From contig JBAMJV010008012.1 in assembly GCA_037951105.1 (NCBI GenBank), positions 1 to 64,000 of the forward strand: a DNA stretch of 64,000 bases, given 5' to 3'. Positions 7,695 through 62,490 of this stretch are shown piece after piece; the first letter of the stretch is position 1; each line of letters opens with the position of its first letter. Source of the DNA: Echinarachnius parma (Eukaryota; Echinodermata; Echinoidea; Clypeasteroida; Echinarachniidae). The notes beneath the pieces were generated by a model. It saw only the letters and a program-made list of their open reading frames with translations, was not told the origin of the DNA and searched no databases. Position numbers and translations under genes: made by a program.

Positions 7695-8151
7695 GGCTCA
7701 AAGAAATTTGGCTGACGAAATAACCCCCTCTCCTTCACCCTTTGAAAAAAAAACAATGTGTGTGGCCACTGCTACCATTACTCAGTGTACTAATGATGCA
7801 GCTAATGCTAGTGAAACTAATACCATGAAATGTACAAATATATAATGTACAATAAAATATAAAATTATATAATAAAGTATCGTGTATGGTGTTAGGAAAA
7901 TCGCATACACTTATCAAAGGATGATAATGACACAGCTAGACAAATGCAATGCACACCCAGACACAATGGTATAGGTTATACCCTCCCATACACGCAACAT
8001 TATACGTACACAAAAACAAAACATGTAATAAAAACAACAACAAATGAAAGTCCCCCTTTATCAAAATAGCGAAATAATTTTCACGAATAGGTTTTGAGCA
8101 AAATTACCTTGTTTCTACACGTATTGATTACTTGTGTGTGATAATAAAATT

Positions 8152-8651
8152 CAGTGGTGTAGCGTGGTCGGATGATTGGGGGGCAATTAAATCACTAGCG
8201 AACCCACGATTTTTTCAAGTTTTTTTTAAACCTAGACCAGGACCAAGTAGATGCAAAATCCTGTCAGCGGCCGGGGGGGGGGGGGGGGGGGGGGGGGGGG
8301 TAGGCTTAGTCGTAATATTTGTTTGGAAGCCTAGACCAGGACCGGTTCCAACAGGACCAGGACCTAGTGGTTCATAAAATCCTGTCAGCGGGGGGGGGTA
8401 GTCGTAAATTTTGTCAGTACCTTTTTTTAGGCCTAGACCAGGACCAGTCCCAATTTTTGTAGCCAGGACCAGGACCGTGGAAGATATTCTAGTCCAGGAC
8501 CAAGCAAAAGTCTAGACCAGGTCCAGTCGCCCAAAATTATTGGGGCACACCTAAAGTTGCCCTTATGTTTTCGGGCACACCTAAATGTGCCCTTATGTTT
8601 TCTATTGTTTTTTCAGAATATATGCCCCCCCCCCCCCGTAGCTCGCCACTG
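8152..8651. mobile_element. hAT-like MITE, 500 bp
   Basis: Ends are CAGTGGTGTAGC (left) and the complement of CAGTGGCGAGC (right), a common hAT terminus. It is flanked by an exact 8-bp duplication, ATAAAATT, at 8144-8151 and 8652-8659. Eight-base duplications are characteristic of hAT elements. The interior has a 28-G run (8273-8300), degenerate copies of CCTAGACCAGGACC, and a tandem pair of 'gggcacacctaaa..tgcccttatgttttc' (about 8544-8601). No ORF is present. It lies inside the Mutator-like element. Confidence 0.85.
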
Positions 8652-8931
8652 ATAAAATTGATTTGTCAAGTCATGCATGAGAGTGAAAGGCACTTTTCAC
8701 AACTCACAAGAGTCAAAATGTGGCAATTTAAGTTCACATATTGTTGGAAATGAAAAACAAATAATTGTTACAAGGATTGTGGTTAGTTTCTGAGTTTTGT
8801 CTCGTTGTATGTTGTTTTGATCCGGCGCCTAGCCTGCAATTTACTCGATCGCCGCGTCGTCAAACTGTGCCTCGGCCCCGCCTCGGCCTCGCTCTCGAAT
8901 CTCGTCGATATCGTCGCGACGCATCAGGGCC

Positions 8932-11792: not shown

Positions 11793-12543
11793 TTAACCCT
11801 AATCCCACGGGGGGGGGGGGCATTTTAGCCCCCCCTGTCGTTTTTGTTCGACGTGCATCTAGACCGATTGAAATTTCACGTTCAAACTTCATGAGTTGTT
11901 TCTCTCAAGTCTCCCGCATGTTTTGATATATAATTCACCCCGGTTGGAAATGTAGAACTGATTTTAAAACTGAAATTTGTGTACAGGTTTCTATGTAATA
12001 AACTAAATCATATATCCGATGCCATTAAAACTACAAATCTGTTATAATTGTTACATTGAATTATAGTTTGGATTATTTCTTTGTTATTAGTTTAATTGAT
12101 ACACTTCAGAGATAAATTCTTCTAAAAAAACAAAAAACACAAACAAAAACAATACAAATATATAAGAATGAAAACAATGTGGGTAAATCCGGGAATACTA
12201 ATTTGCATATTTGCTTAATTTATGCAAATTAATGATATATTTTATCACCATTCAAAATATGGATATGATGCATTATATAATTTGAAAGTTTTCTTACAAA
12301 AAACCTGAAGAAATCCTGTAATTTCTTATGATGTTAGATGAAAATCCCAATTTTCCCCCTAATTCGTCAAAAATGTGCATATTCAAAATTGTTATTAATT
12401 ATAAAAAAAAGAAAATAATGGTCCATTTTTCAAATTCTTATTCTACTTGACTAGTTTTACGTATATGTGCCAATGTTCAAGTCAATAGGTCCATTCGTTG
12501 CCGAGATTTGACCCCCCCCCCCCCCCCCCCCCCAGTGGGTTAA
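11793..12543. mobile_element. Candidate TTAA-flanked element with poly-G/poly-C ends
   Basis: TTAA at 11793-11796 and 12540-12543. Inside these lie imperfect inverted ends (CCCTAATCCCACGGGGG and, on the other strand, CCCACTGGGGG) that run into G and C homopolymers at about 11808-11820 and 12511-12533. The inverted ends are short and partly homopolymeric, so this call is tentative. Confidence 0.4.
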
Positions 12544-17019: not shown

Positions 17020-18228
17020 AAGATCGTTCTACCATTGACTTTGACAAACGACGTCATTACTCCCGTGCCCAAAAACAAACGCCCGAAGGAATACAATGAC
17101 TTTCGGCCAATCGCCTTAACGTCCGTTGTGATGAAGTGCTTGGAGAGAATCGTGCTAGAGAAGCTGATTGGTCCAATTCGCGAGCGCATTGATGTGAATC
17201 AATTTGCGTACCAATCACATCTCTCGGTTAATGATGCGGTTCTCGCGCTGACGGACTCGCTGTACCGACACCTAGACAAGGCAAGGTGTTACGTAAGAGC
17301 TACGTTTGTAGACTTCTCCTCCGCGTTCAACACGATACAACCGTATAAATTGATTGAGAAACTTAGGCAACTAGAAGTGAATCCATCTCTCATCCTGTGG
17401 ATAAATGACTTTCTACACGAGAGATCACAGAGGGTTAGAGTTAACGAAACTTTGTCTGACAAACTCACTACAAACACCGGGACCCCACAAGGCTGTGTTC
17501 TATCCTCAAGTCTGTTTATCCTATACACAAACGATTGTACCTCCGACTTTCCATCGGTTCACATCTATAAATATGCAGATGATACCGTAATTGTACGATT
17601 AATTAAAGAAAACGAGAACGAATACCGGAACACAATCTCCTCTTTTGAAACATGGTGTAAGGATAACCATCTCCTGTTAAATTCAAAGAAAACAAAAGAG
17701 ATGATATTTGACTTTAGGTTAAAAAAGGAATTCGATCCTGTGGATGTTCAGATTGATATTAATAATGAATCTATTGAAAATGTACACAATTACAGATACT
17801 TGGGCACCCATATTGACCATCAGTTGAAGTGGGAAGAGCAAGTAAAAGCTACACTCGTAAAATGTAACCAAAGATTGTATTTTCTTCGCAAACTCAAAGC
17901 TTTCCATGTCAATGAGAGGATTATGTACTTGTTCTACACATCTGTGATCCAAAGTCATATCACCCAGGATAGTACTGTTTGGTACAACAATGCAAAACAA
18001 AAATATAAAGACAAACTGCGCAGGGTAATAAAACGAGCCAGTAAAACTATGAATCGTGATGAGATCAACTTAGATACAATTTGTGAGGAAAGGACACTTG
18101 CTAAAGCCCACACAATTGTAGCCGATCCCTCACATCCGCTCCATTGTAATTACAAGGAGTGGACGTAGGTGGCAATCGCAAATGGCCAGAACAAGTCGGT
18201 TCTCCAACTCATTCATTCCATCAAAGAC
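17020..18228 (+). pseudogene. CR1/Rex-like LINE, 5'-truncated reverse transcriptase
   Basis: One open frame of about 385 codons encodes the RT from just before motif 1 (DFRPIALTSVVMKCLERIV), through TFVDFSSAFNTI (first catalytic Asp), GTPQGCVLSS and YADDTVIV (catalytic pair), to YLGTHIDHQLKW and the thumb. The frame breaks near 18155; the usual C-terminal ending (SGRRWQSQMARTSRFSNSF) continues in another frame. The endonuclease and 5' part are missing, as in typical 5'-truncated insertions. The 3' end runs into the palindrome starting at 18220. Assignment within the CR1/L2/Rex1 group is by motif style. Confidence 0.8.
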
Positions 18229-25454: not shown

Positions 25455-25781
<327 letters not shown>

Positions 25782-25795
25782 CTGGGCAATTCCAC

Positions 25796-26785
25796 GGTAA
25801 CGGAAGGACATTCAGACACAATTTTGGAACTTCAATCAAATACTTCCAGGATCCTGCTTTTGATTTTTTTTATTATAAATGACATGTCTTTGATCCTTGT
25901 TGGGACACCTTTGATTTCCACTATTTCTAAAATTTTGACCGCATTATGTAAATTAGATATGGACACTAATGAGGCCGGTAACGGAAGGACGCCAACATGG
26001 ACATGGATTTTCAAGTTTTTTAGTTATGACCCAATCTCTGTGAAGTTACGAGGTTTATCATGTTAAATTGGCTACTAGTCAATTTCCTTATGTTCACAGA
26101 GTATAACACCACCTTTTAAGAAAAATATCTTCATTGGTATATCAATTATGAGAAATTAATTACTCCAGTGTTCGGTAACGGAAGGACGGTAACGGAAGGA
26201 CCTCTGAAAACTCTATTGGAATTGTATAATAAAATTAATTTTGAAATTTAAAGACCATTTATGAGAAGGAAACATCTCTTTTGTGGTCTAAAATGAGTTT
26301 GTATCATAGATAGCATATGGACATCACAAGCATTTACATTTCTATTTTTTTCTTACTATATTTCATGCTCCAATGGCTCTTATTCATGGTCAATCCATGG
26401 TAACGGAAGGACACTCAGACACAAATTGTCAACTTTAAGAAAGACATTTTTAAATACTTGTGTTGTTAGAACAGTCTATTTTGATAACAATACTTCCAAA
26501 ACATACAGTTTTAAGGTCCCATAATTTTTTATTTTTTTTTATCTCCGTACATTATTGAATATGCATACAAATGAGGTCGGTAACGGAAGGACACCAAAAT
26601 GGACAAGGTTTTGTTATCAAATCAGTTTTAACTAAAACTCTGTGATATTAAATAATACAAACTATTTTAAGGGTACACATTTCATTCTCTGAAGGGTTAA
26701 GAAGACTTGTTCTTTGATTAAAATTTGTCCGCAGATATTTGAGTTATTTCACACAAAGCGGACCAATGTTCGGTAACGGAAGGAC
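25796..26785 (+). repeat. Box-containing repeat: 600-bp unit, two copies, three boxes each
   Basis: GGTAACGGAAGGAC starts at 25796, 25977, 26174 (plus an immediate second copy at 26188), then 26399, 26579 and 26772. The first and second triplets are offset by 603, 602 and 598 bp, and the flanking sequences match pairwise ('cagacacaa' after the first, 'atgagg.cggtaacgg' around the second, 'gttcggtaacgg' before the third). This is a two-copy tandem repeat built of roughly 200-bp subunits. Two more boxes lie at 27741 and 27875. Confidence 0.85.
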
Positions 26786-27498
26786 ATAATGGACTCTAAT
26801 GTATGATATGACACAGTAGGGTCATTCCATGTCAAATCACCTTTAAAAAAATAGAAAATTTTCATCGCAGCCCCCTTCAAATTTGCTAATATTTGGTATG
26901 TATGATATTTCAACCTTTAAAAGCGCAAATATTTAAGTTTTAGCCAAATCCGCCCAATGGTTTTGGCGCTATGGTCGATTCTTATGGGGGAGTTTTGTAA
27001 GAAATGGGCGTGGGCACCATTTTTCAAATGGCCATTGTCCATTACCGTTGGGTCAAGTTATTTTGTAACGGTGTCATTGGACTGGGGATGTTATGTGCAA
27101 TCCATTTATGCCATTTGTGTTCATGCATGAGCGGGTTTGGATACGATAACCTTTGACCTTAGATTTTGACATTCCGTTTTACCTCGTGGATCAATTAATT
27201 TTGAGAATTTGTTTTGCTTAAATATTGGCTTGATATAATTTCTACAACATATGAAAGAATTGGAGATATATTATTTCTTGCTTTTTCTACAGCCTTGTTT
27301 TTAGTTTGCAAATTTCATGTAAAATTTAATTATTTTAGACCTACACCCATGTCCAAGAATTCTATAGGGGTGTATTGTATAAAAAAAGACCTATTCAAAG
27401 TCATGATCAGAGCCTATTCACACCCTGGCTCACCACAGTTAAATAGACCTACTAATCCCCATACAATAGAAATCCAGACAAATGGCATCATGGTACAA
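26786..27498. other. Interior of the 25784-28248 element, no gene
   Basis: Contains 'gggtcattccatgtcaaatc' at about 26819 and GC-balanced sequence to 27080 without exact boxes. Imperfect inverse boxes occur ('gtccattaccgttggg' at about 27037). A 102-codon frame at 27214-27522 shows no domain. Confidence 0.4.
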
Positions 27499-27588
27499 GG
27501 GCCCTGTTGCAGAAAGAGATAAAATCAATTGTGAGCCAGATCAAATGTTCTAAGTGCACAAATCTGATTGGTTGAAACACAGAAAATT
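27499..27588 (+). mobile_element. Fragment of the 2233-2611 MITE family
   Basis: GGGCCCTGTTGCAGAAAGAG followed by 'ctgattggttgaaac' matches the MITE at 2233-2611 with an internal deletion. Only one end is present. Confidence 0.7.
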
Positions 27589-28248
27589 ACTAGTCTGACC
27601 ACGCTACGCCACTGATAGCTGGCCATTGCAGGTATTGTCTCATTATTTTGGGTTTTCATATATGAGAGACCAATTTTTTAACATAAATTTTGTCATAATA
27701 TGTAATATGAGGTAACTTGTCCATCTGTTACCATGTGTATGGTAACGGAAGGACATTTTCTTTTGTTATTTATTAATTAACGAAGAAACAATGAGTAATA
27801 CAATTGTTAGCAATGGGAAGGCCTACTTGAACTTGCTTTGCACTGAACCACAAAATTAAAAATATTGATTTTTCGGTAACGGAAGGACATTTTCATAGGC
27901 TGAAAATAAGAAGTCATTGAAGCATAACAAATCAAATAAATCATACAAATTTACTATTTTACGAAATGGTCATATCTCAGGAGTCAGAATAATGGTTTTT
28001 AGGCTTAACTGGGGAAATATTAAACAAACACAGGATCAAAACACTTTTTTTACCAAAATGTCAAATTTGTGGGGTTCAATTATGGTTATAAATTTATTAT
28101 AAAAAAACAACTAAAATTATGTAAAACTAAAATTTTCTCATTGAATTCCAAAAATATAGAATTTAAGCTTTGATTTGATACCAAATTTGTATCATAAAAA
28201 TGCTTGTAACATTTTTGGTCAAATGTCCACTTTGGCGTGGAATTGCCC

Positions 28249-28257
28249 TACTACTAC

Positions 28258-28338
<81 letters not shown>

Positions 28339-28339
28339 G

Positions 28340-28395
<56 letters not shown>

Positions 28396-28417
28396 GAGTA
28401 GTAGCAGTAGCAGTAGC

Positions 28418-28457
<40 letters not shown>

Positions 28458-28461
28458 CTAC

Positions 28462-28523
<62 letters not shown>
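28249..28523 (+). repeat. (TAG)n microsatellite directly upstream of exon 2
   Basis: Begins CTACTACTACTAG and continues as TAG repeats with a few substitutions until 33 bp before the exon at 28557. It occupies the place where the polypyrimidine tract would normally be sought. Only 'atcattttgctcatag' separates it from the exon. Confidence 0.98.
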
Positions 28524-31757: not shown

Positions 31758-34700
31758 TTTCAATTTCAATTTCAATTTATTCTTGCTTCCAACAAAACAT
31801 TACAAATGAATAATGATAATTTGCACAAAATAGTGATATACATATTGGAAACAAGAGGGGTCCACTAAAAAGCAATGCTTGTACAATTGTGAAACCCTCA
31901 AATAATAGTTAGGTATATTGTACATTTAAATTAACACATTCTAGACTACAACAACATACACAAATATAGAGAGGAACAAGGGGGAAAAGGGGATGCCAAC
32001 AGAGACCAACATGGGACAAGAGAGAACTTTACATGACACAAATAGGAGAAGACGCACACAATACAAACAATGAGACACTGCCAAAAGGAAGTGAGAGATC
32101 GGAGGTACAAATGTATGTAAAAGATAAGCTGCAAGTGGGGTTCAAGTGAAAATAAGGAAAAAGACTTGCGCATAATAGAATGGAACAATGCATGAGAAGG
32201 CACAATATATAATATCAGATTACATTTTGAGTCCGCGAGTAAAGAATGACCTTGTTTAAGGATGACGTAAGAACGAAACAAGAGTAAATGGGAGATATAA
32301 TTCAATGATGTTTATAAGATTGTAATAAAAAAATGTTTAATTTTTTCTTAAAGATATTAATCGATGGAGCATTTTTTATTTCATTACTTAAAGAATTCCA
32401 TAATTTAGGACCTTCATATATAAATGTATTTTGAGCAAGTAGGGTCCGCAAGAGAGGTAAATGAAATTCTTCAGAATGTCTAGTTGGATAATTATGAACT
32501 GAACTATTTTTAAAAAACCATTTCTTGAAAAACAGATGGTAGCATGTTATTATTATAATTATACATAAATTGACCAAGTTGAAATAAAAATAGGTCTTTT
32601 ACCTTCAGTATCTTATTTTCAAAAAATAAAGAGTCAGTATGGGAGCGAAAAGGGGAATTACAAATAATACGAATAACCTTCTTTTGTAATAACAGCACTT
32701 TATCTAATAAAGTTTCATGTGTGTTTCCCCAAACTAAAAGACCATAATTTAAGTATGGGAGTATCAAAGAACTATAAAGCATAATTAGTGAAGTAAATGG
32801 AAGACATGTTTTTACTTTATAAATAATACCAATATTACGAGAAATAGTTTTACAAATATTATCAATATGATGTTTCCAAGAAAGGTTACTATCAACCGTT
32901 ACACCCAGAAATGTAATGAATGAAACACGCTCCAATGGGGTGTTTTCAAAAACTATGTTAGCCGGTAACGAAGAATCTATAGATTTACTAAACAACATAT
33001 ATTTCGTTTTCTGGAGATTCAATGATAATTTGTTCGCTCTAATCCATGATAAAATATGACTCAATTCAATATTAATAATTTCAACTAATCTATGAGAATC
33101 CGTATGAGAAAAAAAACAAATTTGTATCATCAGCAAAAAGTACGAATGACAAAATTTCGGACGATCGACAGAAGTCATTAATATATAAAATAAATAAAAG
33201 TGGGCCTAATATACTACCTTGTGGAACACCACAATTTATATTACGGGGAGCTGAAGAGTTATCATTTAAAAATACATACTGCCTTCTGTCTGAAAGATAG
33301 CTCCTGAACCACTCCAAGGCCAACCCACGTATACCATAATGTGAAAGTTTATAAAGTAAAATATCGTGGTTAATCGTGTCGAAGGCCTTGGAGAAGTCCA
33401 GGAAAATGCCTATCGTATGAGACGATTTGTCGATTGCATGAGCTACCTTCTCAATAAAGGACAATAATGCGTGTACAGTATTGTGTTTTTCCCTAAAACC
33501 AAATTGGAGACTAGAAAAAATATTGTTATTTTTTAAAAGGATACTGTACGAGAATATATTATCTTTTCTAACATTTTTGAAAAAGAGGATAATAAGGAAA
33601 TCGGTCGATAATTATTTACATCTAATTTATCGCCCTTTTTGAACAAAGGAATTACTTTGGCAATTTTCATAGAGTTTGGTACCTGGCCATATAATAAAGA
33701 CAAGTTAAAAATATGAACGAGAGGATCCACAACAGAAGGTATAATGCCCTTTAAAATAAAATTATTAATTTCATCATGGCCAGAACTTTTCTTAGAATCA
33801 AATTTCGAAACAATATCTAAAATTTCATATCTATGAATAGGAACAAAAAATATAGATTTTGAATTGGGCTGGCCCAACAAATCAGCAAAATGCTTATTTG
33901 ATGCGGGAATATTAACAGCAAGATTTTCACCAATCGAAGAAAAGTAATTATTTAAAATATTTACTATATCCCTAGGATCCTCAACAATCTCATCATTAAA
34001 CTTAATTTTTGTTATGTCAGATTTATTATTAGTAACATTCATTGCCTGTTTAATCATTTTCCAAGTATTTTTCATATCATGTTTATACAAAGCCAACATA
34101 TTTTCAAAATACACTTTCTTTTCCAAACGAATAATCTTAGTCAAAATATTTGTATAAGATGTATATTTCATTTTTAACCTTTCTGTGCCATCTAATTTAT
34201 ATTTATAAAAAAGATTATTTTTCCTATTTATCGAACGTAATATCGATTTAGTGATACAAGGAAGCCTTGGTGTTTTTTTTTTATAATCATTAATTTTAAC
34301 TCTTTGTGTAGGAATACAAGTATCTAATTGATCATTCAAAATATCACAAAAATTATCGTAAGAAGAATTTACTTCATCTACACCATAAACAGGAGACCAA
34401 TCTACATGTTCAAGACTAGAAGCAAGACTAGCTAATTTTTCATTATTGACTTTTCGTCTAAATAAACGTGGGTCATTATTATTAATTGATTGAGATAAAG
34501 TATAATGTGTTACAATAGGATAATGGTCAGTTATGTCTGAAAGAACAATATAAGAGTCAGGGTGGGGGATGACATTTGAAAATATGTTATCTATTAAGGA
34601 GGAAGAGGAGTTTGTCACACGAGTGGGCTTAGAAATAAGAGGTAAAAAAGATGCAGAGAGGAGGGTCTCGAGAAATTCTTGGGACACATTATTATGTTCA

Positions 34701-35805: not shown

Positions 35806-38577
35806 TCAAATTTCATTACAATAATTTAAGTGTGGTAAGATGATTGCATTATAAATATAAATCAATATCCTAGAAGGTAAAAATGTTTTCAATTTATACA
35901 ATACTCCAATACTTCTAGATAATTTAGATGAAATGTTCATAATATGATATTTCCAATCTAATGATTCATGAATAATAATACCTAGGAAATTAATTGTCTC
36001 AGTTATTTCTATGATAATATTATTAATTGATATTGGATTTATATCATGTGGAATCTTTTTATTCTTAGAACGAAATATAATATACTTGGTCTTAGTGAAA
36101 TTTAAAAATAACTTATTACATTTAAACCAATCATTAAGTTTTTCTAGTTCTTGATTCATAGTAGATATTAATAATGATACATCTTTATTTGAATACAATA
36201 CAACTGTATCGTCAGCAAAGAGTGAAAATGTTAACAATTTAGAGGAATTAATTACATCATTTATATAAATCAAAAATAAGAGAGGTCCTAGTACAGAACC
36301 TTGTGGTACCCCAATATCTACATTTGCATATTCGGATTCGACACCATCTACCACCACATATTGTTTTCTATTTAATAAATAACTTCGGAACCACTGTAAG
36401 GGTAAACCCCTAAGTCCATAAAATTGTAATCTTTTTAGAAGAATATGGTGGTTGATGGTGTCAAACGCCTTTGATAAATCCACAAAGACTCCACAGCAAA
36501 CATTTCCCTTGTCCATATTTTGTAATATATTATCAGTAAAATTAATTACGCTTAGAGAGGTAGAATGATTTTTACGGAATCCAAATTGTTCAGGAATTAG
36601 TATATGATTTATAGTCAAAAAATCATAAAGTCTGTCATACATTAACCTTTCTAATAACTTAGAAAAAATTGGAAGGAGTGCAATAGGTCTATAATTTACT
36701 ATATTTTCTGGGTTATCTTTTTTAAACAGAGGAATAATTTTTGCTATCTTTAATTTGTCAGGAACAATGCCAGAGCTTAGTGACTTATTAACAATATCAC
36801 ATAATGGGTGTACAAAATAATCAATACATTCTTTTACTACCCGAGGTGAAATATCATCAGATCCACTAGCCTTAGATATTTTAATCAAAGAAGACATTTT
36901 AACAATTTCATAAATAGATGTAGGTTTCACAAAAAAAGACAATGAGTTTGGATTCGACAAGAAATCAACAAATGAATTACTCGAGCTTGAGAGTGAGTTC
37001 AAAAGATGTTTTCCCACATTTACAAAATAAGAATTAAAGTGTTTTACAATATCACATCTTGAATTTAATTTCAAATCGCCAAAATACATATTTTTAGGAA
37101 GAACATTATATTTTTTATTACCAAGAATATCATGTATTTGACTCCAAGTTTTCTTCATATCACCTTGTATTGCAATGAATATATTTGTATAGTATTCTAT
37201 TTTAGAACATCGTATAATATTTGTAAGTACATTTTTATATTGTGTGTACTGTATTACATTTTGAATACTAGGTGTTTTCAATTGCTGTTTATACATTTTA
37301 TTTTTACGCTTTATAGATTGAAATATGGCTTTTGTAATCCATGGGTTCTTAATCTTACCTTTTTTCTTATTCTTAATTTTTTTTAGAGGGAAACATTTAT
37401 TGTATATACTAAAAAATTTAACAAGAAATATATCATAACATTGATTTGCGTCATCACAACTATAAACACTAGACCAATCAGTTGAAATCAATGTTTGTTT
37501 AAATAACAAGATATTATATTCAGTAATAACACGTTTTTGTAAGTTCTGTTTATGTTGGGGTGTATTTACACTCTGATTATAATTACTTGAAATACTATAA
37601 ATTGGAAAATGGTCAGAAAGATCATCATAAAGAATTCCGGAGTGATTTTTCATTTGTATTGTATTCGTAAAAATATTGTCTATCAAGGAAGCTCTATTTA
37701 CTGAAACTCGAGTTGGTTTGACTATTAAAGGGTACATACAATATGAATACATCATATCCAAAAAATCATTTGTTTTTGTGTGAGTACCATAACTTAGTAA
37801 ATTTATATTAAAGTCTCCTAACAAATATATATCTTTCTTTTCACGTTCCAATATTTGAAATAAATCCATCATTTTTTCAGTAAAACAAGTAATATCAGTG
37901 TTTGGCGGACGATACATACATGCTACAATAACTGACTTACTATTCACTTTAAATTCAACAAAAATCATTTCATAGTTACTCATAGTACAAGACAAATCAT
38001 TTCGCACAGTATATTGAATATTACTATTTACATATAAAGCAACACCACCACCTATTTTGTCTGTTCTACATACATGAGCGAGTGAATAGTTGAGAATATT
38101 GTACATATTTATATTTGTATTTGAATTAAACCAAGTCTCCGATATAGCCATTATGTCAAAATCAAATTCAAGGGATGAAATTAATGTTTTAAATTGATCA
38201 AAGTGTTTGTGAAGACTTCTCGCATTTCAATGAAATAAAGAAAGGTGTTGTGATTCATAGTTGTATTTCTCATTGAAGTCTTCACTAAACATGTATTGGC
38301 ATGTATTATTTGAGTCAAAATTATCTTGTACAGCAAACGGGTCTTCATTAGTCTCAAGATAATTTTGTTTAATAAAATTAACAATAAAAGGGTTTATTTT
38401 TAAGGATTGAAATCTATTCAAATCTATTTGTTTTGACAAATGAAAATAAGAGTATACTGTCAAATAAAATTCTTCATCATCTATTATATGGTTAAATGGT
38501 AAAATATTTGAGACACAGTTTGTACAAAGCCATGACTGAATGGAAGAGAAAGAATTGCAATTCACGCACACACACAT
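35806..38577 (-). pseudogene. CR1-like LINE B ORF2, endonuclease and most of the RT
   Basis: Starts with a cysteine-rich segment (CVNCNSF..CTNCVSNILPF), like the PHD-type end seen in CR1-group proteins. After an in-frame TGA at 38227 it continues in the same frame: NARSLHKHFDQF, MAISETWF, CMYRPPNTD, LLGDFNINLL, SLIDNIF, LSDHFPIY. The RT has VNYRPIALLPIFSKLLE, FGFRKNHST, VDLSKAFDTINHH, GVPQGSVLGPLLFL and LFADDTVVL. A second TGA at 35806 stands where the family has Trp (CNEIWGN). Coding continues a short way before LINE A splits it; the rest is at 31117-31757. Confidence 0.88.
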
Positions 38578-53210: not shown

Positions 53211-55501
53211 AACCGGTGCCCATATTCGTTAAACCCCGATAAGCTAGTTGGTTGATCAAATTACAATGTCGTTGTCCGCTAACTAGGCTTACCTGGCATT
53301 CAAGGCCAAAAGGCTAGATTCGCTATCGTAGTCAAGGCCTGACCTAGCATGACAACCCATCTTTCTAAATTCCACAAGCATTTGGTATTCCACGACATTG
53401 TTAGTCGAAAATCGAACAATTACAACAATCTGCGGTGTGGACTAATTGCATTGCAATCTATTTATGTGGGACCTTCTGTATAGAGCTTTCTTGGACTTAC
53501 AACAAAGTTGAATGACCCAGCTAAATTGTTCTTATTCACAAAAGCCGAATAGAACAAATTTGTAGCAACAACTGGACAAAACTTTAGAGGTACTCTGCTG
53601 TACCGGTAAATCGTTAGCAAGTAACAATCTGCCCGGTTATAGTGTCTATGCGTGTGGCGCGATCGTGAACATGGCAAGGAGAATATTCGAATTAGGTGAA
53701 TTAAGGCGTGCCTTTCGAATAAGGGAACATTTTTTTTTCGAATTTGTTATGATAGCGTGATGTTTAGTTCCCCAAGTAACATACTATTTCTTGTCTGTCC
53801 CAGCATCCTTGCACTTGCATCGATACCATCCTAAAACTGTACGGTATTTGTCAGATTAAATTACATGTTTTTTATCTTGAGAGTAATTTGCCTTTATTTG
53901 TCCTTTTTGCTGACATATTAGCTTACTTTTGCAGTTCCGGTTTTGATTTTATGTGATTTCAATTATGTTTTGATGAATCTATCTATATAATACTATTATG
54001 TACAATTTCGTTCCTGTTTTCACTGCTATTGAACAGTTTCCCTTGTCCTGCTATCATATTATGAGCGTGGCGGAGCTTGATCATAATGAGGAGGATTTAT
54101 TTATTTTGTTTTGTTTCATTGGGGGTGGCTATGAAAACATGTGCTTACGCGTGATCCCCCCCCCCCCTCCCCCCCTCCGTCCCGCCCCGAAAAAAAAACA
54201 TCATTGCCACTCACGCTCATATCTACAGTAACACCCTTACATTTAGGAATTCCTTCCTGTCACAACTGTATAAGAACCATTATAGCACGCTTTTTTTTTG
54301 GACACAGGTTATCGCCCCCCACGTTAACCCAAATAAGACAATTATGTTCTACTACCCCCTCTCGCCCCCCCCCCCCCCCCCCACCCCTTACTGCTTGCTC
54401 ATCTGGATTGGCCCGGTTTCGCTCATTTCAACCATTTTGTATCATGTTGCAGTAAAACACACAAACTCAATAAGACGTTCTTATGACTGGAACAAGAAGG
54501 ACAATTTTTTTCATTCACACGTTCAAGTGAACTGCGCTTTTATGCGATGTCAAACAAAATGGTGACAGATGGACTGTTACCATGACAGCCACGATGAATA
54601 ATTAAGTAATCCGAGCTGTTGACTTTTTATCGATATGGTTAGAAGTGCTTCTTGGATTACGATTTAGCAACCAGCTATGAAGATTTCAAATGGGCATTGT
54701 ATTACAAGGCTCAAACGCTCGTTAATTGATTGATATGGTAAGGGCATAGAAAGCATGCTAAATCTACACACATTACTGAAGACATACCCATGCACGTGTG
54801 TGTTGTGCACTGCTCTGTGAAGAACAAAGGTGATCACTCAAGCGAGTTTTGTTTGTTCGCCGCTACTTATCGTCCAACCTGGCATTTTGGCAAGGAGATA
54901 AGGCCTAGCAGACAGCTTAGGCTATTGGACTTTTATGAATATGACCGCAGAGCACTATAAATCTGATTGCCTATGGAGAGAAATATTCAGTATTTGGACA
55001 TTATTGCTCTTTCGAAAAATGAAGTTTAAATTAGAAAATTCTAAAACAAGTTGTTATGATGTCATAGCTTCTGTACTATATTAAATAAGGTGTGTTAATT
55101 CAAACATTTGGTGGATATTCCACAGGTTTGTTATTCCGATGGTCTGTAAACCTAATTAATCAGATGATAAGAAATGGAACCATTATTTTGAGGGTTAGTT
55201 AATCCAATCAAAGAAAGGTTTCATTAACACAAATGTTCGTTATTTCGAATGTTCACAGTTCCTTAACAAGGAGGTTCATTAATCTAAACATTTATGAGTG
55301 CATAATTTTTAATTTCCGGATCATCGAACAATTGGAATAACCAGGCTCCTTGTAATGAATCTTCGGAATAACGAGCACTTTTGAATAACAAACCTTCACA
55401 TTATTGTACAAATCCTTTTCAATTTTCTAGGGATAACAAACGTTTTAGAATAACAAACTAATTCAAACATATTAGGAAACTAACCAGAAATTATTATAAT
55501 G
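53211..55501. other. No gene; C-tracts and repeat fragments
   Basis: C homopolymers at about 54156-54180 and 54367-54382. 54977-55085 is a diverged third copy of the arm end at 52880-52980 ('gaaaattctaaaa', 'gatgtcata'). 55130-55500 is a degenerate minisatellite of 'GAATAACRAAC' motifs. The proline-rich frames in this stretch are artefacts. Confidence 0.5.
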
Positions 55502-55910
55502 TGATTAAAAGAGAGCAAAGAAAAAAGGGATTATAACGAGATTCGAATCCGAGACCTCCAGATTGCTAGACCGGTGCTCTTACCGACTGAGCCATAGCAA
55601 ATCCTATGACGGCAATCGGCCCTGAAACCCCTTAATTCTTCATTGTATGTTCGAATTAATTATTTTAAAAAAGCTGCATCACTTCGGTGATCCCTCGCAT
55701 ATATCGCCAACTTGATATCCATCCTTCGGGTTTATGTCAGGTTTATAATAGCTTCTGACCACTTGAGCAATGACGAATTAAGGGGTTTCATGGACGATCG
55801 CCGCCATAGGGTTTTCTAAAGCTCAGTTGGTAAGAGCACCGATTTAGCAATCCGGAAGTCTCGGCTTTGAATCCCGTTAGAATTCCATTTTCTTTGCTCT
55901 CTTTTCATCA
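55502..55910. mobile_element. Foldback element with two facing tRNA-like halves
   Basis: Left (55502-55645) and right (55760-55910) arms are inverted repeats, from AAAAGAGAGCAAAGAAAA to its complement at the other end. Each arm holds a tRNA-like block: the minus strand at 55540-55598 and the plus strand at 55816-55876, with a B-box-like GATTCGAATC/GCTTTGAATCCC, a D-arm GCTCAGT.GGTAAGAGCAC and an anticodon loop reading AGC (Ala). Stems are mismatched and acceptor ends absent, so these are SINE- or tRNA-derived relics. The element is embedded in the GAATAAC minisatellite. Confidence 0.75.
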
Positions 55911-61640: not shown

Positions 61641-61658
61641 TACTACAACTACTACTAT

Positions 61659-61724
<66 letters not shown>

Positions 61725-61736
61725 CACTACTACTAC

Positions 61737-61784
<48 letters not shown>

Positions 61785-61786
61785 AT

Positions 61787-61874
<88 letters not shown>

Positions 61875-61901
61875 AACTACTACTACTACTACTACTCTTG
61901 A

Positions 61902-61970
<69 letters not shown>

Positions 61971-61972
61971 AT

Positions 61973-62032
<60 letters not shown>

Positions 62033-62054
62033 GTAGTAGTAGTACTACTACTAC

Positions 62055-62096
<42 letters not shown>

Positions 62097-62097
62097 A

Positions 62098-62156
<59 letters not shown>

Positions 62157-62158
62157 AT

Positions 62159-62212
<54 letters not shown>

Positions 62213-62252
62213 ATACTACATCTACTACTACTAGTACTACTACTACTACTAG

Positions 62253-62287
<35 letters not shown>

Positions 62288-62327
62288 CTACTACTACTAC
62301 TACTACTACTAGTAGTAGTAGTACTAC

Positions 62328-62423
<96 letters not shown>

Positions 62424-62490
62424 TACTACTACTACTACTACTAATACTACTGCTGCTGCTGCTACTACTAATACTACTACTACTACTACT
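61641..62490 (+). repeat. (TAC)n microsatellite, 850 bp, with strand flips
   Basis: TAC/ACT repeats starting about 40 bp after the donor of the last exon, with scattered substitutions. At about 62030-62046 and 62307-62322 the unit switches to TAGTAGTAG before returning, leaving short complementary inserts. Poly-Val and poly-Leu frames over it are artefacts. Confidence 0.97.

Follow-up and report, generated by a model that had tools for sequence, protein, structure and literature searches.

Nine identical 14-bp boxes in a probable non-autonomous DNA transposon between TAG microsatellites of Echinarachnius parma

The element and its surroundings

The window (the whole stretch of DNA that was analysed, 64 kb in length) holds at 25784-28248 a segment that lies between TAG microsatellites and is bounded by perfect 13-bp inverted repeats, and on both points our analysis agrees with a previous sequence-only reading. 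The (TAG)n arrays were found on the + strand at 25456-25778 on the left and at 28258-28523 on the right. The repeat GGGCAATTCCACG is exact at both edges (25784-25796 on the + strand and 28236-28248 on the - strand, 13/13 bp), occurs at no other place in the 64-kb window, and on either side lies directly against the inner edge of the microsatellite flank. The termini of the element are GGG..CCC, and the last G of the left repeat is also the first G of box 1.

Inside these ends, the nine exact copies of GGTAACGGAAGGAC that had been claimed for the segment were all recovered, every one on the + strand: box 1 at 25796-25809, box 2 at 25977-25990, box 3 at 26174-26187, box 4 at 26188-26201, box 5 at 26399-26412, box 6 at 26579-26592, box 7 at 26772-26785, box 8 at 27741-27754 and box 9 at 27875-27888. 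Boxes 3 and 4 form a head-to-tail pair, so that there are eight box sites. On the left, successive box starts are 181, 197, 14, 211, 180 and 193 bp apart, and no box adjoins the right inverted repeat. The box is the most repeated 14-mer in the window when repeats of period 1 to 6 are left out; allowing up to 3 mismatches, it has 13 matches in the 64 kb against a shuffle mean of 2.29, and 13 was reached in 0 of 100 shuffles. As the box was picked for its identity, probabilities computed from it are biased and serve as guides only. Within the element (up to 4 mismatches, both strands), nine copies have 0 mismatches and one, on the - strand, has 2, with none at 1, 3 or 4. All 14 box columns have an information content of 2.0 bits, and none of the 18 flanking columns examined exceeds 1.24.

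The diverged inverse boxes that had also been proposed stood in one of two places. At 27719-27732 (- strand), GGTAACAGATGGAC is an inverse variant box with 2 mismatches that runs on into TGGACA, the whole being GGTAACAGATGGACA, the first part of the box joined to TGGACA; at 27037, nothing lies within 4 mismatches of the box, and in its place 27036 holds TGGACA on the - strand. The inverse variant box and box 8 together make an inverted repeat at 27727-27746, GTTACCAT-GTGT-ATGGTAAC.

When the boxes are masked, TGGACA tops the enriched 6-mers of the element (8 observed, 1.57 expected) and ATGGACA the enriched 7-mers (6 against 0.51), in a comparison that carries no correction for multiple words and in which other words are enriched as well, such as CTAAAA (10 against 2.98). 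Four TGGACA copies lie on the + strand in the left half (25960-26605; starts at 25960, 25998, 26318 and 26600) and four on the - strand in the right half (27036-28229; low ends at 27036, 27350, 27718 and 28224). With random strands and independent copies, such a split would have a chance of 2/256; it is weaker than this figure because the motif was chosen as the top of many 6-mers, because the + copies at 25998 and 26600 are duplicates of each other, and because the - copies at 27036 and 27350 lie in the middle stretch, which may be filler. The box (GGTAACGG-AGGAC) and TGGACA have a GGAC core in common. A further link between the two halves is the right-end inner module ACGCCAAAGTGGACAT (28223-28238, - strand): in a search of the 64 kb with these 16 bases, allowing up to 3 mismatches on both strands, it was met only at its own place, at 25989 and at 26591, with 2 and 3 mismatches respectively. 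The last two stretches sit just to the right of boxes 2 and 6, and this recurrence connects the right end with the left part without recourse to the terminal repeats.

The middle of the element contains foreign filler. A fragment at 27492-27588 (+ strand) belongs to another repeat family that is also present at 2233-2265 and 2488-2619 (E 8.6e-11 against the repeat at 2233-2619), and an nhmmer comparison between the element and the remaining window reported only a filler piece, 27481-27690. By eye, an element with inverted ends GGCCCCGTTGCAGAAAGAGATACAATCGATTGT can be outlined at about 2233-2612, and an inner stretch of it, with inverted repeats of its own, looks like a second nested element. 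Next to the filler, 27594-27615 (+ strand) weakly matches, over 22 bp (E 0.034), one end of a hAT-like element that occupies 8152-8651; the latter, again by eye, has CAGTGG..CCACTG ends and an 8-bp duplication ATAAAATT at 8144-8151 and 8652-8659, as is expected of hAT. Other weak matches are AT-rich: the right piece 28023-28066 with 17706-17748 on the other strand (E 2.7e-4), which lies inside a reverse-transcriptase frame and is perhaps due to composition, the right piece with 32301-32352 (E 0.002), and the left piece with 12376-12421 (E 0.010). Two candidate relatives were rejected. The sequence GGGTCATTCCATG at 26819 was considered as a second left end; with 3 mismatches allowed, the terminal repeat has 10 matches in the window where 8.83 are expected, and as many arise in 40 of 100 shuffles. 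The stretch GGTGACAGATGGAC near 54561 was considered as a distant relative; when four element pieces were compared with the window, the matches there had no better than E 0.038 and 0.89.

The window as a whole has eukaryotic content: reverse-transcriptase frames, one with endonuclease domains, as well as a zinc-knuckle frame and long trinucleotide arrays. A 781-aa frame at 35806-38151 (- strand), with endonuclease and reverse transcriptase domains, represents a LINE-type protein. There are 51 window frames of at least 100 aa, and 20 lying outside the element were run against Pfam; for ten of these 20, the only matches were to reverse transcriptase/DUF6451, in one of the ten. Rfam gave nothing on the window beyond two tRNA-like matches just above the cut-off, placed back to back about 220 bp apart at 55534-55596 (- strand) and 55814-55882 (+ strand); ARAGORN called no tRNA, at these two places included, and they are perhaps tRNA-derived repeats.

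Beyond the window, the bare 14-mer was found in 89 stretches of viral contigs, with one match each among the matches listed, and in two contigs of bacterial and archaeal genomes, also with one match each; these occurrences are probably due to chance. The same viral contigs gave 0 matches for the box joined to the left inverted-repeat end, for the 26819 sequence, and for two boxes with 160-190 bases between them. A distant search of phage records, at E up to 1e-5, returned no match. In a string search of the literature, the 14-mer was found in neither direction and the 13-bp repeat was absent among the matches listed; one of these matches, PMC6544594, a paper on enzyme engineering by its title, has the string GGTAACGGAAGG.

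An old internal duplication with unchanged boxes

The left part of the element consists of two units of about 600 bp, in which boxes 1, 2 and 3 and boxes 5, 6 and 7 occupy corresponding places while the spacers have largely diverged. Unit 1 (25784-26201, + strand) contains boxes 1-4, and unit 2 (26387-26785, + strand), with boxes 5-7, is an old diverged copy of it, offset by about 600 bp. In global alignment, both full spacers did better than 300 of 300 shuffles (z 4.2 and 5.6), and for three control pairings 62, 149 and 164 of 300 shuffles were as good. For the cores of the spacers, 270 of 300 shuffles were as good in spacer 1 and 4 of 300 in spacer 2. Since the full spacers beat the shuffles and the cores barely do so or do not, we conclude that there is a genuine duplication close to the boxes and that it is old. 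The units fade past the boxes, as 50 of 300 shuffles align as well as the stretches that follow boxes 4 and 7.

Against this background, the three box pairs agree at 42 of 42 bases. Ungapped identity of the pairs in the nearest 20 bases is 37/60 on the left and 31/40 on the right, and in the next 20 bases 21/60 and 18/40; the right-side counts omit pair 3/7, as box 4 occupies that side, and on the left pair 1/5 extends beyond the element and into the TAG array. When this last pair is set aside, the left values are 27/40 for the nearest 20 bases and 14/40 for the next 20. An identity of 42/42 would have a chance near 8.5e-5 at 0.80 per base and near 2.6e-8 at 0.66, the latter rate being that of the columns outside boxes in the alignment of the units (251 of 383 aligned columns, with 148 gap columns). 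In the same alignment the box columns agree at 49 of 55, because box 4 is paired there with non-box sequence. The proposal that the boxes are under constraint is therefore supported by three matching pairs in an old internal duplication that are identical when their flanks are not.

Relation to known transposons

Our main reading, to which we give a probability of about 0.7, takes 25784-28248 as a single non-autonomous DNA transposon of the cut-and-paste type. Support for a mobile element whose ends match comes from the inverted repeats, the common inner module, the opposed TGGACA copies and the match between the flanks. No second copy was found within the 64-kb window itself and, as only one copy of the element has been seen, its mobility is something that we infer. 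In the element, 10 of the 25 stop-to-stop frames (at least 40 aa) were run against Pfam, the other 15 including several microsatellite translations; no family was above its cut-off in the ten, which had best E values of 0.1 and 0.14 and scores of less than half of the cut-offs, and no transposase is encoded within them.

The insertion point lies within a run of TAC units, and the element sits between T and T. The candidate target-site duplication is TACTACT, at 25777-25783 and 28249-28255 (+ strand), for which the 7-bp form, a 4-bp TACT and a 1-bp T fit equally, the flanks being microsatellite. A duplication of 2, 3, 5, 6, 8, 9 or 10 bp does not match the flanks unless mutated. Lengths of 1, 4 and 7 bp also put the left and right TAG units in phase and 0 does not, and the flank match and the restored phase are in part one fact counted twice because the repeat has a period of 3.

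The superfamily is left undecided. The usual hAT duplication is 8 bp, which does not match the flanks, and 7 bp does. In the En/Spm system, non-coding derivatives carry many TNPA sites, with a motif of about 12 bp that serves an accessory protein, and the hallmarks are CACTA ends and a 3-bp duplication; our element is alike in its multi-copy motif, but neither hallmark is seen. Families of hAT annotated with a 7-bp target-site duplication are mentioned in PMC4455052, and hAT fits only with this untypical length. The Repbase rule for a superfamily asks for equal duplication length and for terminal positions 1 to 11 alike (PMC4455052). The element resembles Ac/Ds of maize, a hAT system whose Ds2-type elements have 11-bp terminal inverted repeats and in which copies of AAACGG bind transposase cooperatively, in its short terminal inverted repeats, in the many copies of a short motif, and in being non-coding with foreign filler (excerpts of PMC3260210). 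As described in the same excerpts, however, the Ac/Ds motif is of 6 bp, lies in the terminal 200 bp and can be served by related sequences, whereas the box here has 14 bp, is invariant, has one orientation and occurs as far as about 1 kb from the end.

Nesting in microsatellites has precedents: in plants, MuTAnT, a group of Mutator-like elements that sit within TA microsatellites in Medicago (PMC4486113, excerpt), and the MITEs of pineapple, which are associated with microsatellites (PMC8449440, excerpt), with further links in moths, insects and nematodes cited in the excerpt of PMC4486113. As in these plant cases, the microsatellite flanks mask the exact target-site duplication; in contrast, according to both excerpts, those elements lie mainly in (TA)n and have longer inverted repeats and 9-bp or 9/10-bp duplications, and here we have a TAG array and 13-bp repeats. 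Duplications of 9 and 10 bp, as for Mutator-like elements, do not match our flanks, and Mutator is unlikely, though the range of 4-10 bp given for MuDR with IS256 in an excerpt of PMC10045372 leaves it some chance.

A row of sites repeated from one end is known from piggyBat, of the piggyBac superfamily, in which three transposase sites run inward from one end and the other end is less clear (PMC11707139, excerpt). Its site, a GCGGGA motif with an imperfect palindrome in that excerpt, differs from our box, and the piggyBac termini CC..GG with 4-bp duplications (PMC10045372, excerpt) differ from GGG..CCC. The 3-bp duplications given for PIF/Harbinger (PMC2213677, excerpt) and for Zator (PMC10045372, excerpt) do not match the flanks either; the wider PHIS group, which has no duplication or one of 1-4 bp (PMC10045372, excerpt), may still fit. 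Other groups with 1-, 4- or 7-bp duplications may be compatible. Going by these excerpts, repeated transposase sites (Ac/Ds), a row of sites at one end (piggyBat) and nesting in microsatellites (MuTAnT, pineapple) are all already known. In this sense the kind of element is known, and it is the exactness of the 14-bp signal that is unusual.

Possible roles of the boxes and other origins of the locus

We infer that the box is bound by a transposase or a host factor, against which it counts that a binding site with no tolerated variant at any of 14 positions is unusual. We put at about even odds that the boxes are sites of the element's own transposase or of its accessory protein. In such a model, a DNA-binding protein encoded elsewhere in the genome, be it an accessory protein or an autonomous partner's transposase, would bind the box (GGTAACGG-AGGAC) and also TGGACA, a shorter motif related to it; the variant at 27719, where part of a box is joined to TGGACA, suggests that one kind of protein would read both. 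The bound copies would draw the two ends together, the element would be excised and would then land in a TAG array at one of its TAC islands, and repair of the gaps would yield a short duplication. The boxes might be kept identical because only copies that bind well would be mobilised. Both the binding and the partner acting in trans are presumed here. Should further copies prove to hold the box exact when everything else has drifted, it would qualify as a highly specific recognition site, whose reader (a transposase, an accessory protein or a host protein) binding assays could identify; the element would also extend the microsatellite-nesting elements by a trinucleotide case.

Where a transposase docks at both ends, its sites are often in opposed orientation, whereas the nine exact boxes all face the same way; the missing box beside the right inverted repeat is a further point against docking. 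The single direction of the boxes, together with the absence of box variants, is what movement in trans explains least well. The shared direction speaks for another role in the same transposon, which we regard as possible though rather unlikely: the boxes would be sites of a recruited host protein (a transcription, architectural or silencing factor) acting on expression or chromatin and not on cutting. The spacing of the left boxes, leaving aside the tandem pair, is also close to a nucleosome repeat, with the last two distances repeating the first two through the duplication, and the box contains TAACGG and GGTAAC, which we take to be like Myb and RFX half-sites. Against a host factor stands the GGAC core that the box has in common with TGGACA, a motif whose opposed strands fit docking at the ends.

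It is doubtful that the boxes are alike through copying (gene conversion, slippage or templated repair) rather than through selection. Boxes 3 and 4 are indeed an exact 14-bp head-to-tail duplication, and the lack of any 1-mismatch box in the element is as expected of recent copying. Yet conversion should carry flanking sequence with it, and identity ends sharply at the box edges; moreover, the boxes lie at corresponding places in both old units. Similarly doubtful, in our judgement, is a transposon family, so far undescribed, that would need a directional 14-bp array without tolerated variation for its movement or silencing, and that would land on TAC islands in TAG microsatellites. To our knowledge, site arrays of known elements tolerate variants, unlike a 14-bp signal of this kind.

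A rolling-circle element of the Helentron type, or a non-coding relative, is less likely than a cut-and-paste transposon and is improbable in itself. Helentrons and their non-coding relatives have a palindrome near the 3' end and resemble the element in short inverted repeats, a T-T site, a possible small 3' hairpin and a link to microsatellites (PMC4067079, excerpt), and a helitron-like family that disrupts (GAAA)n microsatellites has been reported in moths, going by the title of that report. Here, the element lies between T and T, and a 5-bp hairpin, TCCAC-TTTGGC-GTGGA, is predicted at 28226-28241 (+ strand), 7 nt from the right end, with 9 of 200 shuffles folding as well as the last 80 nt of the element (z -1.93). 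However, in the mite families the 3' inverted repeat lies 38-60 bp inside the end (PMC4067079, excerpt), and here the inverted repeats are terminal on both sides and not subterminal, if the ends are 25784 and 28248. A 3' end placed further out would fall in the TAG array. The flanks, unlike those of Helentrons, permit a duplication that restores the TAG phase; if there were none, the TAG units on the two sides would be out of phase.

Finally, it is hardly credible that an assembly join or recombination across TAG arrays put unrelated sequence between them. In favour of it, the two arrays have an order of variant units in common; against it, a chance join would give neither perfect inverted repeats at both sides nor a common inner module. 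The common order scores 14.6, a value reached in none of 300 unit shuffles and in 3 of 300 block shuffles; with this moderate support, it suggests that the array itself was duplicated before or during insertion. At 61641-62490, an 850-bp TAC array with inner TAG runs switches strand in the same manner as TAG arrays do at their TAC islands.
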